Source: Eggerthella sp. YY7918
GTDB lineage: Bacteria; Actinomycetota; Coriobacteriia; Coriobacteriales; Eggerthellaceae
NCBI RefSeq assembly: GCF_000270285.1
Contig: NC_015738.1
Span: 1,488,001-1,552,000 of the forward strand
DNA: 64,000 nt
Reading direction: 5' to 3'
Part shown: piece after piece, positions 36,566 through 48,498 of the stretch
Numbering within the stretch: the stretch's first letter is position 1
Layout: the number at the start of each line of letters is the position of its first letter
Notes under the pieces: generated by a model
What the model saw: only the letters and a program-made list of their open reading frames with translations
The model's database searches: none
Told to the model about the DNA's origin: nothing
Made by a program: the position numbers and the translations under genes

Positions 36566-36982
36566 CTATTTGCTATCGATTTCCGTTGACAATTCCACAC
36601 CGGAAGCATGAAGCCGCTTGAGGCTTTCCTCAAGCTCCGCTAACTGATACTCAAGCACCGTCTCTTGCGCCTTCACAATATCCAGTCGCTCTTTGCGCGT
36701 TGCCTCGCCACGCTTCTGCAGCTTCACATAGTATTGAATACCCTCAATGGAAAGACCGCTTTTGCGTAGCGCTTCAACAAAGTGAAGCTGAGCTATATCG
36801 GCATCTGAAAAAGAACGAATACCGCGGCGGTCGCGAGCAAGTTCTGGTAAAAAGCCGCATTTATCGTAATAGCGTATGGTGAATGCAGATATGCCCGTCG
36901 TGTCAACGACTTCGGCAATGCCATACTGAGGTGCATTGGAAATTGTCCTACCATGTTCGCCACCCCAAGAATTGTCTATCAT
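36566..36982 (-). CDS. MerR family transcriptional regulator
   Basis: 138 aa. A winged helix-turn-helix spans about residues 20-90 (YGIAEVVDTTGISAFTIRYYDKCGFLP, RSFSDADIAQLHFVEALRKSGLSIEGI), followed by a short dimerisation coiled coil to the C-terminus. There is no effector domain and no cysteine cluster, so it is of the small NmlR/AdhR-like kind. ATG 36982 has GAGGAG upstream. Three exact 18-bp repeats containing a TTAGAGT dyad lie upstream of it, so it probably regulates itself. The same dyad in front of vanZ suggests a second target. Confidence 0.87.
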   Translation of the reverse strand: MIDNSWGGEHGRTISNAPQYGIAEVVDTTGISAFTIRYYDKCGFLPELARDRRGIRSFSDADIAQLHFVEALRKSGLSIEGIQYYVKLQKRGEATRKERLDIVKAQETVLEYQLAELEESLKRLHASGVELSTEIDSK

Positions 36983-37010
36983 CTGCGAACTCCTCAGTCT
37001 CCCCTTGTGT

Positions 37011-37064
37011 TAGAGTAACTCTAACACATAGAGTAACTCTAACACATAGAGTAACTCTAACACA
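37011..37064 (-). promoter_or_regulatory. Triple operator upstream of merR
   Basis: Three exact tandem copies of an 18-bp unit (TAGAGTAACTCTAACACA) at 37011, 37029 and 37047. Each holds the odd palindrome TAGAGT-A-ACTCTA. The unit spacing of 18 bp places sites about 1.7 turns apart. The 3' end of dut is 89 bp further. Confidence 0.75.
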
Positions 37065-37152: not shown

Positions 37153-37593
37153 CTATACGCCGCTGCTTCCGAATCCGCCCGCTCCCCTCTCTGTTTCGGG
37201 AAGGTCTTCGCATACCTGAAGGGTAACAGGCGGTGTTTGCATGACAACGAGCTGAGCGATGCGATCACCTCGTTTGATTTCAAAGGATTCATGGGGGTCG
37301 AGATTGATTAAAACAGCCTTAATCTCTCCGCGATAACCGCTGTCGATAAGCCCCGGCGCATTAACAAGCGAGATGCCGTGCTTTGCTGCAAGCCCGCTAC
37401 GCGGCAAAACGAAACCGGCATACCCTTGCGGAAGTGCAATTGAAATACCGCACGGTACTAAAGCACGCTCAAAAGGATGAAGAACCAGGTTGGATGCAGA
37501 CCGTAAGTCCACGCCCGCATCGCCTTCGTAAGCGTAAGCAGGAACAGGAATATCTGCATGAAGCGATTTTAGGGGGACTACCACCTGTCCCAT
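37153..37593 (-). CDS. dut: Deoxyuridine 5'-triphosphate nucleotidohydrolase
   Basis: 146 aa dUTPase that hydrolyses dUTP to dUMP. The motifs are present: AGVDLRSA (1), PRSGLAAKHG (2), NAPGLIDSGYRGEI (3, catalytic Asp), GDRIAQLVV (4) and RGAGGFGSSG (5, the C-terminal lid). It starts one base after nrdR stops, so the two are co-transcribed. Confidence 0.95.
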   Translation of the reverse strand: MGQVVVPLKSLHADIPVPAYAYEGDAGVDLRSASNLVLHPFERALVPCGISIALPQGYAGFVLPRSGLAAKHGISLVNAPGLIDSGYRGEIKAVLINLDPHESFEIKRGDRIAQLVVMQTPPVTLQVCEDLPETERGAGGFGSSGV

Positions 37594-37594
37594 A

Positions 37595-38041
37595 TCAGTT
37601 CATCCCTTCAAGTGCGGCTGCGAATTCTTCAACGTTTTGAAAGTCTTTATAGACACTTGCAAAGCGCACATAGGCAACATCATCAAGTTTAGCAAGCCTT
37701 ACGAGTGCCATATCGCCAAGATCCTTCGAGCCAATCTCATTGCGTGACGTATTGCGAAGCTCTGTCTCGATACTGTCAATGAGGCTTGAAAGCTGCTCGG
37801 GAGAAATGGGGCGTTTTGCACAGGCGATAAGAAGTCCTCGCATGAGCTTTTGTCGATCATAGGCCTCAGAGGAGCCATCAGACTTAATGATGATAAGGGG
37901 GTTGTCGCCAAGGCGCTCGTAGGTTGTAAAACGATGACCGCAGGCAAGACATTCGCGACGACGACGGATGGCGGCTCCATCCTCCGAGGGACGAGAATCG
38001 ACAACCTTTGATTCCAAGTGACTACAAGATGGACAGCGCAT
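37595..38041 (-). CDS. nrdR: Ribonucleotide reductase repressor NrdR
   Basis: 148 aa. The N-terminal zinc ribbon has CPSC and CLACGHRF (four Cys at residues 3, 6, 31 and 34); the ATP-cone domain follows at about 48-138. NrdR represses ribonucleotide reductase genes depending on ATP/dATP. ATG at 38041 has AAAGGAG at 5 nt; the frame is open to 38104. A good NrdR box lies 34 bp upstream of its start, so it is probably autoregulated, and pairing it with dut puts dNTP control in one transcript. Confidence 0.95.
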   Translation of the reverse strand: MRCPSCSHLESKVVDSRPSEDGAAIRRRRECLACGHRFTTYERLGDNPLIIIKSDGSSEAYDRQKLMRGLLIACAKRPISPEQLSSLIDSIETELRNTSRNEIGSKDLGDMALVRLAKLDDVAYVRFASVYKDFQNVEEFAAALEGMN

Positions 38042-38090: not shown

Positions 38091-38150
38091 TACAAGAGAC
38101 TCATCTAAAGATTCACCCACAACTCATCGTGGTAGATACTCTAAATATAT

Positions 38151-38182
38151 TGAGCGCCTCTCGGGTGGACGGGAGGCGCTCA
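38151..38182 (-). terminator. Terminator of the lexA-divergent small gene
   Basis: TGAGCGCCTC / GAGGCGCTCA, 10-bp perfect stem with a 12-nt loop. On the minus strand ATATATTTAGA follows, a weak U-tail. Confidence 0.6.
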
Positions 38183-38254
38183 CGCAGCCACAGAAACGCA
38201 GCATCTGTGGGTAAGGAATGGGTAAGAAACATACGTACTGAAGCGCAGACAATC

Positions 38255-38596
38255 CTATAGCGAGAAAAAGAGACTAGCAAAAGCGAGAGCTGTCAGAATA
38301 GAGCCACCTAAAACAGCTTGCCAGCGTTGCATGTGGCCAAATGCTATACCCTTCGAATCGCCTTCGCGCAAAGACGATACCATTTCACTTTGGAGAGCGC
38401 GGTTTTCAAGAGCCTGGAAAGTCGTATATATCGACGTTTGTCTTCCCGTTTTGAACGACGGTGCACCATTAAAGTCATCTTGGTGCTCACAACCGGGAAA
38501 CGCGATGATGGTAGCCATCTGAGAGTTGGGTTTCATCGCTTCAAGCTTGAGAGCCGAAGTTCCCTCAACAGGGTATTTTGCTGCAATTTTTTTCAT
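38255..38596 (-). CDS. LexA-controlled small membrane protein, candidate SOS cell-division inhibitor
   Basis: 113 aa with no family recognised. Residues 1-90 are soluble (one Cys, at 36), and a single hydrophobic helix at about 93-112 ends the chain. ATG 38596 has GGAGG at 7 nt; the open frame extends further but the extra part overlaps the promoter. It is divergent from lexA. Its promoter is near consensus (TTGACA-17-TATTAT) with one LexA box in the spacer and one at the start site, so strict SOS control is expected. The place and size recall yneA of Bacillus and chiZ of Mycobacterium, but no LysM domain is present. Function as a division block is inference. Confidence 0.75.
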   Translation of the reverse strand: MKKIAAKYPVEGTSALKLEAMKPNSQMATIIAFPGCEHQDDFNGAPSFKTGRQTSIYTTFQALENRALQSEMVSSLREGDSKGIAFGHMQRWQAVLGGSILTALAFASLFFSL

Positions 38597-38620
38597 TTTA
38601 TGCCCTCCTGCTCTTGCGTA

Positions 38621-38632
38621 GAACCTTTGTTC
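38621..38632. promoter_or_regulatory. LexA box 1
   Basis: GAACCTTTGTTC, a perfect GAAC-N4-GTTC dyad. It covers the predicted start of the divergent small gene. Confidence 0.85.
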
Positions 38633-38638
38633 GCGTAT

Positions 38639-38667
38639 ATAATAGAACGAACAAAGGTTCATGTCAA
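38639..38667 (-). promoter_or_regulatory. Promoter of the SOS small membrane protein gene
   Basis: Minus strand TTGACA (38667-38662), exactly 17 bp, TATTAT (38644-38639). The spacer holds LexA box 2. The overlapping TATAAT on the plus strand (38638-38643) may serve lexA with TTGCGT at 38614. Confidence 0.8.
38649..38660. promoter_or_regulatory. LexA box 2
   Basis: GAACAAAGGTTC, GAAC-N4-GTTC, centred in the spacer of the minus-strand promoter. Confidence 0.85.
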
Positions 38668-38676
38668 CACTTTTTC

Positions 38677-38688
38677 AAACATTTGTTC
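38677..38688. promoter_or_regulatory. LexA box 3
   Basis: AAACATTTGTTC; its complement (C)GAACAAATGTTT closely resembles the recA box CGAACACATGTTTG. It lies between the lexA start region and its ATG. Confidence 0.75.
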
Positions 38689-38718
38689 GCGGTAGGTTGG
38701 ACGACGAAAGGATACATC

Positions 38719-39357
38719 ATGGCCGAGAAAGTAACCAAGCGCCAACAAGCGGTGCTCGATTGCATTGAGGAATGCATCAAAGAAAAGGGCTATGGTCCTA
38801 CGGTTCGTGAGGTCTGCCAAAGTCTCGGCCTTTCCTCCCCTTCCACCGTTCATGTGCATTTGAAAGCGCTGGAGGACAAAGGTCTTATTAAACGAGACCC
38901 TCTTAAATCGCGCTCGATTGCTCTTACCTATCCGCTTGACGACACGACGTCCGCCTCAAATGTTATACGTCCCTCATTCAGCAAGGTGGTTGATGTTCCG
39001 CTCGTGGGTAACGTAGCGGCAGGGTCCCCGATTCTTGCTGAAGAAAACATCACCGACACCATCTCGCTTCCCACTGACATTGTGGGAGATGCACCGTCGT
39101 TTCTTCTGTCTGTTCGTGGTGAGAGCATGATTGAAGCAGGCATCAACGATGGCGACTACGTTGTCGTGAAGGAGCAGCCTGTTGCCAACAACGGAGATAT
39201 CGTAGTGGCTATCATTGACGATGGCGCTACCGTTAAGCGCTTTTATAAAGAACAGGACCACATTCGTCTGCAACCCGAAAACTCGACCATGGCTCCTATT
39301 CTTACGACCGACTGCGCCATTGCCGGTAAAGTGGTCGCGGTATTCCGGAGGCTGTAA
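38719..39357 (+). CDS. lexA: SOS repressor LexA
   Basis: 212 aa. The N-terminal winged helix spans residues 1-70 (YGPTVREVCQSLGLSSPSTVHVHL). The C-terminal S24 peptidase domain has the self-cleavage site Ala101-Gly102 (GNVAAGSP) and the dyad Ser136 (RGESM) and Lys173 (TVKRFY). RecA filaments trigger cleavage. ATG 38719 has GAAAGG upstream. Three LexA boxes upstream mean self-control. Confidence 0.96.
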   Translation: MAEKVTKRQQAVLDCIEECIKEKGYGPTVREVCQSLGLSSPSTVHVHLKALEDKGLIKRDPLKSRSIALTYPLDDTTSASNVIRPSFSKVVDVPLVGNVAAGSPILAEENITDTISLPTDIVGDAPSFLLSVRGESMIEAGINDGDYVVVKEQPVANNGDIVVAIIDDGATVKRFYKEQDHIRLQPENSTMAPILTTDCAIAGKVVAVFRRL

Positions 39358-47357: not shown

Positions 47358-48416
47358 TTACTTCTTCTTTGTAGGCTTCGCAACGGGTGACATCGCATCA
47401 GCTTCCTCTGTCGTACGCGAAATAAGAGGAATTTCAAACGCTTCACGCACCTTTGCCTCAAGCTCGTCGCGCAGATCGGGGTTTTCTTTGAGCGTCTGTT
47501 TGGCAGCCTCGCGTCCCTGGCCGAGGCGCTCTTCGCCGTAGGTATACCAAGCACCGCTCTTCTTGGCGACACCGCACTCCACGGCCATGTCGACGATGCA
47601 TCCTTCGCGCGAAATGCCCTCGCCGTACATAAGATCGAACTCGGCTTGACGAAACGGCGGCGCAACCTTGTTTTTGACGACCTTGGCACGCACGCGGTTG
47701 CCGACAATTTCACCGTTTTGCTTGATGGAGTCAATACGGCGAATATCGATACGTACGCTTGAGAAGAATTTGAGAGCGCGACCGCCCGTGGTGGTTTCAG
47801 GGTTGCCGAACATAACGCCGATCTTCTCGCGCAGCTGGTTGATGAAGATACAGGTCGTATTCGATTTGGAAAGCGATCCGGCCAGTTTACGAAGCGCTTG
47901 TGACATCAATCGTGCCTGCAGACCCACCGTAGTGTCGCCAATTTCGCCCTCTATTTCAGCACGGGGCACAAGCGCTGCAACCGAGTCGATAACGACTGCG
48001 TCGATAGCACCGCTGCGCACCAGCATATCGCAGATTTCAAGCGCCTGCTCGCCGGTGTCGGGCTGAGAGATAAGCACTTCGTCGATATCGACGCCCAGAC
48101 GGGCGGCATACACAGGATCAAGCGCATGCTCGGCGTCGATGAATGCGACAATGCCGCCCATAGCTTGCGCTTCGGCGATGATCTGAAGGGCGAGCGTCGT
48201 TTTGCCGCTGGATTCAGGGCCGTATATCTCTACAATACGTCCCCGCGGAACTCCGCCGATACCAAGCGCCGCATCAAGAGGCAGCGCACCTGTTGGTATT
48301 ACCCCTATGTTGAGATCCTGACCGCCTTCACCGAACTTCATGATGGAACCCTTGCCAAACTTGGTCTCAATCTGTTCGGTTGTCAGCTTGAGCATCTTCG
48401 TCTTCTCGTCGTTCAT
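47358..48416 (-). CDS. recA: Recombinase RecA
   Basis: 352 aa. Walker A is [13 protein letters not shown] near residue 65; [17 protein letters not shown] holds Walker B; the L2 region and [12 protein letters not shown] are intact. It starts with the ATG at 48416. The C-terminus ends in a Lys-rich tail. The promoter has a LexA box (48477-48490). Confidence 0.98.
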
Positions 48417-48470: not shown

Positions 48471-48498
48471 ATTATACGAACACATGTTTGTTAGTCAA
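48471..48498 (-). promoter_or_regulatory. recA promoter with LexA box
   Basis: Minus strand TTGACT (48498-48493), 16 bp, TATAAT (48476-48471). The spacer is almost filled by the LexA dyad CGAACACATGTTTG (48477-48490 on plus). Confidence 0.85.

Follow-up and report, generated by a model that had tools for sequence, protein, structure and literature searches.

A 113-aa protein encoded opposite lexA in Eggerthella sp. YY7918, here called X, is probably (at a rough probability of 0.7) the Eggerthellaceae version of the SOS division suppressors of YneA/ChiZ type, one in which the LysM domain has been lost while a cytoplasmic motif block and one membrane helix have been kept. Its single helix, the LexA boxes in front of it, its conservation opposite lexA and the lack of a LysM domain make X a good candidate for an SOS division inhibitor. 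X would also be a candidate for an SOS checkpoint protein in a bacterial family that is common in the gut; in the literature on SOS in Eggerthella, Coriobacteriia and Adlercreutzia, as far as titles and abstract openings go, no SOS checkpoint protein was found. The gene lies in a window of 64,000 nt (the whole stretch of DNA that was analysed), where a preliminary description had marked the range 38255-38719, that is, the gene plus its promoter region. The features of the locus are as follows.

38255..38596, minus strand: X, gene of the 113-aa protein, stop codon included (open reading frame with ribosome-binding site, conserved in the family)
38603..38609, minus strand: ribosome-binding site of X, AGGAGGG (from the sequence)
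38489..38572, minus strand: predicted cytoplasmic block of X, codons 9-36, EGTSAL ... IIAFP in the window (conserved; common to sister-family LysM proteins)
38318..38392, minus strand: juxtamembrane block of X around G83, codons 69-93 (low entropy)
38258..38314, minus strand: membrane helix of X, codons 95-113, at the extreme C-terminus (predicted from hydropathy; position kept in relatives)
38719..39357, plus strand: lexA, ATG at 38719 (Pfam LexA_DNA_bind and Peptidase_S24)
37595..38041, minus strand: nrdR, the next gene after X (Pfam NrdR Zn ribbon and ATP-cone)
37153..37593, minus strand: dut, dUTPase (Pfam dUTPase)

X and lexA are divergent. Translation of X is taken to start at the ATG at 38596; a 135-aa version starting at 38662 was rejected because the start of the 113-aa version has a strong ribosome-binding site and the relatives begin there too. 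Hydropathy predicts one membrane helix, the last 19 residues (95-113) being the most hydrophobic 19-residue segment of the protein, which bears out the C-terminal helix of the preliminary description; in 38/38 relatives of X, 0-5 residues lie beyond the helix segment. The layout common to the family is an N-terminal block (G12, A15-L16, I30, F33-P34), a variable linker, the block around G83, and the helix. Conservation of G12, A15, L16, I30, F33 and P34 is 0.90-1.00 among 30 members, and mean entropy is 2.06 bits over the juxtamembrane codons 69-93 versus 2.90 bits over the linker codons 37-68. X has no match among Pfam, NCBIfam and PHROGs models; neither NF010723 (YneA) nor any other NCBIfam family matches it at E up to 1, and 0/40 members match LysM or another Pfam family, so that the absence of a LysM domain, claimed before, stands. 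Further along the minus strand, near-perfect tandem copies of GAGTAACTCTAACACATA (37010-37064) are found immediately upstream of a MerR-like gene (36566-36982, minus strand) and are possibly its operators.

The region between X and lexA holds the following elements.

38662..38667, minus strand: putative -35 hexamer of X, TTGACA (consensus match only)
38639..38644, minus strand: putative -10 hexamer of X, TATTAT (consensus match only)
38649..38660: perfect LexA box GAACAAAGGTTC, filling the -35/-10 spacer of X (sequence; spacing kept in relatives)
38621..38632: perfect LexA box GAACCTTTGTTC, just past the -10 of X (sequence; spacing kept in relatives)
38677..38688: third box AAACATTTGTTC, imperfect, 28 bp on the lexA side of the GAACAAAGGTTC box (sequence; similar third box in many relatives)

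The promoter-like site, with 17 nt between its hexamers and 11/12 consensus matches, is the only one in 38100-38800; shuffled sequence averages 0.8 such sites, the X promoter alone is not beyond chance, and the argument is therefore carried by the LexA boxes. The two perfect boxes, which together with the promoter had been reported correctly, are 28 bp apart. Perfect GAACNNNNGTTC sites number 42 in the 3.12 Mb of the genome (139 for a reversed control pattern), and the two at X are the only ones within the window. At 67/73 related family loci two boxes with at most one mismatch each lie 22-30 bp apart, and at 52/73 two perfect boxes lie exactly 28 bp apart. The same window contains recA (HMM match 47442-48407, minus strand); upstream of it an imperfect box, AAACATGTGTTC (48478-48489), is placed between TTGACT and TATAAT, a promoter design as in X, and is consistent with the GAACNNNNGTTC-type motif being a LexA site in this genome.

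X is a feature of its family, the Eggerthellaceae (f1 in our numbering, including Gordonibacter, Slackia, Hugonella and Adlercreutzia). A search with the single sequence matches 40/138 family genomes, a 27-row profile matches 69/396 genomes across the class (of which 67 belong to the window's family and the remaining 2 to different families of the same order), and a 40-row profile finds matches in 92/138 family genomes (good-quality ones: 65/92). In all 92 matching genomes the match is divergent from lexA and at most 500 bp away, with a median of 122 bp; the conservation opposite lexA for which the preliminary description had proposed looking is therefore there. Extra profile matches in G062 and G134 are away from lexA, weak, and interrupted by internal stops. 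The idea that X is a spurious reading frame was rejected on the strength of this constant position and of dN/dS values of 0.11-0.66 in ten gene pairs, two of which have dS near saturation. Of the matches in a sample of 396 genomes from the phylum, 11 fell in the window's family; two others, weak and outside it (one at E 1.8e-4 with an internal stop, the other at 4e-4), were taken as chance. In one draft genome (G030:C1:13029-13358) the matched frame is interrupted by a single stop, which may reflect decay of the gene or an error in the draft. A lexA match is present in 129/138 family genomes, and these are made up of the 92 with a profile match, 7 with further X-type reading frames found by reading (G026, G041, G042, G043, G044, G102, G104), 11 with a micro reading frame, 16 with no convincing membrane reading frame opposite lexA, and 3 that are cut off or were not fetched (L217 ends at a contig end; G083 and G111 have a partial lexA).

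What occupies the same place outside the family bears on the origin of X. The lexA regions of 73 genomes of the class (L058-L130) were examined. In the sister families f2 and f3, probably Atopobiaceae and Coriobacteriaceae, the gene opposite lexA, again followed by nrdR and dut, encodes a helix-plus-LysM protein of the YneA/ChiZ type, composed of a cytoplasmic N-terminus, a helix and an extracellular LysM domain; 70-78 residues follow the helix in 15/16 assigned proteins and Pfam LysM is matched by 13/16. The lexA region of L074, also from the sister families, has no such gene. In L072 (1992-2285, minus strand; family f2) the protein opposite lexA has 98 aa, ends at the helix and is devoid of LysM; this would be a second, separate LysM loss. 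In the deeper families 68-93 residues follow the helix in 30/30 assigned proteins and Pfam LysM is matched by 26/30; 13 of the 43 deeper loci (L086-L128) were given no protein, as no helix reading frame was found or the start was unclear (L086, L087, L090, L099-L103, L109, L112, L122, L123, L125). By eye, the Collinsella aerofaciens and Olsenella loci show the same helix-plus-LysM architecture. For the four LysM proteins tested (one from f2, two from f3, one deeper) the best NCBIfam model was YneA, their scores of 44.7-58.9 bits staying below its cut-off of 60.

X and the f2/f3 proteins have in common an N-terminal motif, G-[NSTA]-x-A-[LMI] followed by a short hydrophobic stretch, which occurs within the first 30 residues in 34/38 f1, 13/16 f2/f3 and 1/30 deeper proteins (shuffled means 0.33, 0.17 and 0.22, respectively). 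Alignment of the f1 and f2/f3 N-termini by hhalign (excluding L088, whose N-terminus is too short) scored 23.3, with a maximum of 11.8 in 200 column shuffles; against the deeper set f1 scored 0.27. Because the hhalign probability for f1 against f2/f3 is only 22 percent, the claim of a shared motif is founded on the shuffle control; as the motif is seen in only 1/30 of the deeper LysM proteins, shared ancestry with these is argued from locus and architecture only. LysM-less Slackia proteins bridge both styles, the second half of their motif being like that of the sister families (GTSALKMEDPQARFTVLRG in L139; GSSALKYNSKRPVLEVIPGG in L259), and the motif is present in one of the two X-like proteins, L129 and L130, from other families of the order. 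The history of the locus was followed on a LexA+NrdR tree covering 83 rows, of which 71 include NrdR (quick search with SH-aLRT as the sole support measure). The near-duplicate rows L010, L013, L021, L022 and L028 had been dropped beforehand, and the labels of four rows, set from profile matches, held on later reading. Among the rows having the gene, LysM presence or absence needs 2 changes, and LysM loss would be the economical history of X.

From the motif counts, the hhalign scores against shuffles, the neighbours and the tree, it looks as though X and the LysM proteins encoded at this locus elsewhere in the order have a common ancestor. X could instead be an unrelated protein which came to occupy the position opposite lexA and blocks division in a way of its own; the lack of LysM and of any Pfam, NCBIfam or PHROGs match would suit such an origin, as would the shortness of the shared motif and the 22 percent, but the motif is common to the LysM proteins of the same locus beyond what shuffles give, the Slackia proteins are intermediate, and the neighbours nrdR and dut are the same, which makes an unrelated origin unlikely. 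The preliminary description had considered X a possible independent solution to the task, a suggestion that is not supported in view of the YneA/ChiZ-type LysM proteins which sister families have at this locus, the common N-terminal motif and a tree favouring LysM loss. Still counting against X as a LysM-less YneA/ChiZ-type suppressor are that it matches no YneA or LysM model, the low hhalign probability, and the rarity of the motif in the deeper LysM proteins.

Within the family the gene seems to shrink further, to 75-79 aa, to 33-34 aa and to 23 aa, and then to be lost. This emerged from 33 further lexA regions of the family (32 genomes without a profile match, plus G058, which has a partial match). 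Forms with motif and helix, most of the linker gone, have 75 aa in genus g24 (two genomes) and 79 aa in genus g16 (one genome); genus g32 has a 33-34-aa peptide in three genomes (in L235 the finder's start lies upstream, and the matching start gives 34 aa). In genus g2, which contains Adlercreutzia muris, a 23-aa reading frame (e.g., MARYEFPIAFALSTIASFVIFFA) is found in 8/8 readable loci at a distance of 118-122 nt from the lexA match; it is preceded by a ribosome-binding site and has both LexA boxes in front. Its alignment is gap-free in 8/8, the variable columns at codon positions 1, 2 and 3 numbering 12, 5 and 20; after its stop, 60/60 columns vary or are gapped. Comparison of the helices links them step by step: out of 2000 shuffles, as good a similarity was reached by 0 for g32-g16, 2 for g32-g24, 3 for g2-g16, 26 for g2-g32, 33 for long X-g24 and 44 for long X-g32, while direct likeness is unsupported between long X and the g2 peptide (414/2000) and between g2 and g24 (340/2000). 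On the LexA+NrdR tree one clade of 15 rows (support 95) unites 7 micro rows, 4/5 short rows, 3/7 gene-less rows and 1 long row, with the micro rows as two groups inside it (2 changes).

The apparent shrinkage of some relatives to a membrane peptide of 23 residues points to the helix as the acting part. TisB is a membrane-active peptide, induced in the SOS response, that reduces the membrane potential and brings about dormancy. That X and its short relatives are SOS-induced peptides of this kind rather than divisome inhibitors is quite improbable: the 23- and 33-34-aa relatives are indeed single hydrophobic segments, but the long X carries a conserved cytoplasmic block, and its locus and motif recur in helix-plus-LysM proteins, for which the best curated model is that of a division suppressor.

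As for the 16 loci with no convincing membrane reading frame, they include L222 and L240, where weakly hydrophobic reading frames of 26 aa (GTG start) and 22 aa (TTG start), respectively, were not accepted. Their existence among the 129 means that X is dispensable, which weighs against its being the SOS division suppressor of the family. At a number of loci without X (L061, L219-L221, L228, L229, L231, L232, L241 and others) one or two LexA boxes persist; because the boxes remain and nrdR is the first recognised gene behind them in several such loci, nrdR may be under direct SOS control there. Together with the neighbours nrdR and dut in the window, this last arrangement might be read as X serving nucleotide supply or its regulation with NrdR and the dUTPase during SOS, with no direct role in division. 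Such a role has little to recommend it, as the same neighbours are found beside the sister-family LysM proteins, for which YneA is the best curated model.

The most likely function of X is that of an SOS-induced division inhibitor whose helix would act on the septal wall-synthesis complex (FtsW/FtsI). DNA damage would cause LexA to cleave itself, whereby the two boxes would be freed and the X promoter would fire; X would then insert with its N-terminus inside and the helix at its extreme C-terminus, the helix would bind the septal wall-synthesis complex, most likely FtsW/FtsI, and septation would wait for repair. Turnover of YneA and SosA acts on their extracellular part; because X lacks such a part, its cytoplasmic block may be suggested to serve in divisome contact or in turnover. 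Since X retains the part reported sufficient in ChiZ, a helix-acting divisome inhibitor, with the cytoplasmic block aiding binding or turnover, is favoured by analogy.

Reports on how small SOS membrane proteins stop division differ. The helix of Bacillus YneA binds TM7 of FtsW and its LysM domain blocks septal wall synthesis, the helix alone not being inhibitory in B. subtilis and LysM being essential (PMC13396833), which speaks against a LysM-less X acting as a division suppressor; by contrast, the ChiZ N-terminus plus helix is reported to suffice for filamentation (PMC7355643). At the locus described here, nature appears to have cut down one gene in steps under a single promoter and the same LexA boxes, leading from LysM plus helix plus motif to helix plus motif (most Eggerthellaceae, including the window), to 75-79 aa, and to the 33-34- and 23-aa helix peptides (the genus of Adlercreutzia muris and its kin); this series could separate the roles of LysM, cytoplasmic part and helix without engineering. 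A tentative proposal, at somewhat less than even odds, is that in this lineage the membrane helix alone does the inhibiting. Were it true, few SOS division inhibitors would be as small as the 23-aa form, and the LysM domain that Bacillus YneA needs would here be a dispensable add-on.

The gene order in Mycobacterium is lexA-chiZ-nrdR. ChiZ (Rv2719c) resembles X in its cytoplasmic N-terminus and helix, but has LysM after the helix. YneA of Bacillus subtilis (NF010723) has a single helix, is divergent from lexA and has LexA boxes, as has X, and the YneA-like LysM proteins opposite lexA in Coriobacteriia have the N-terminal motif of X as well; X differs from YneA in being without LysM and in having, by prediction, nothing outside the membrane after the helix, whereas YneA needs its LysM to block division (PMC13396833). 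The same paper also places ChiZ, SosA and SidA on FtsW, in low-confidence models. SosA (Staphylococcus aureus) and DivS (Corynebacterium glutamicum) are SOS-induced division inhibitors near lexA which lack LysM, as does X (PMC6851548, PMC3989709); there, however, the helix is followed by an extracellular C-terminus, essential in SosA, whereas X stops with the helix and carries a conserved stretch on the cytoplasmic side. LysM-less inhibitors adjacent to lexA are already known from SosA and DivS, but among the papers and passages searched none describes a form that ends at the helix, carries a conserved cytoplasmic motif and has relatives as short as 23 aa. The short relatives of X finally recall SidA of Caulobacter crescentus, an SOS-induced protein of 29 aa which acts on FtsW (PMC4211646): likened by description, SidA and the 23- and 33-34-aa peptides are very small membrane proteins of similar size from different lineages, and size, LexA boxes and hydrophobicity of the peptides fit SidA-like micro inhibitors.
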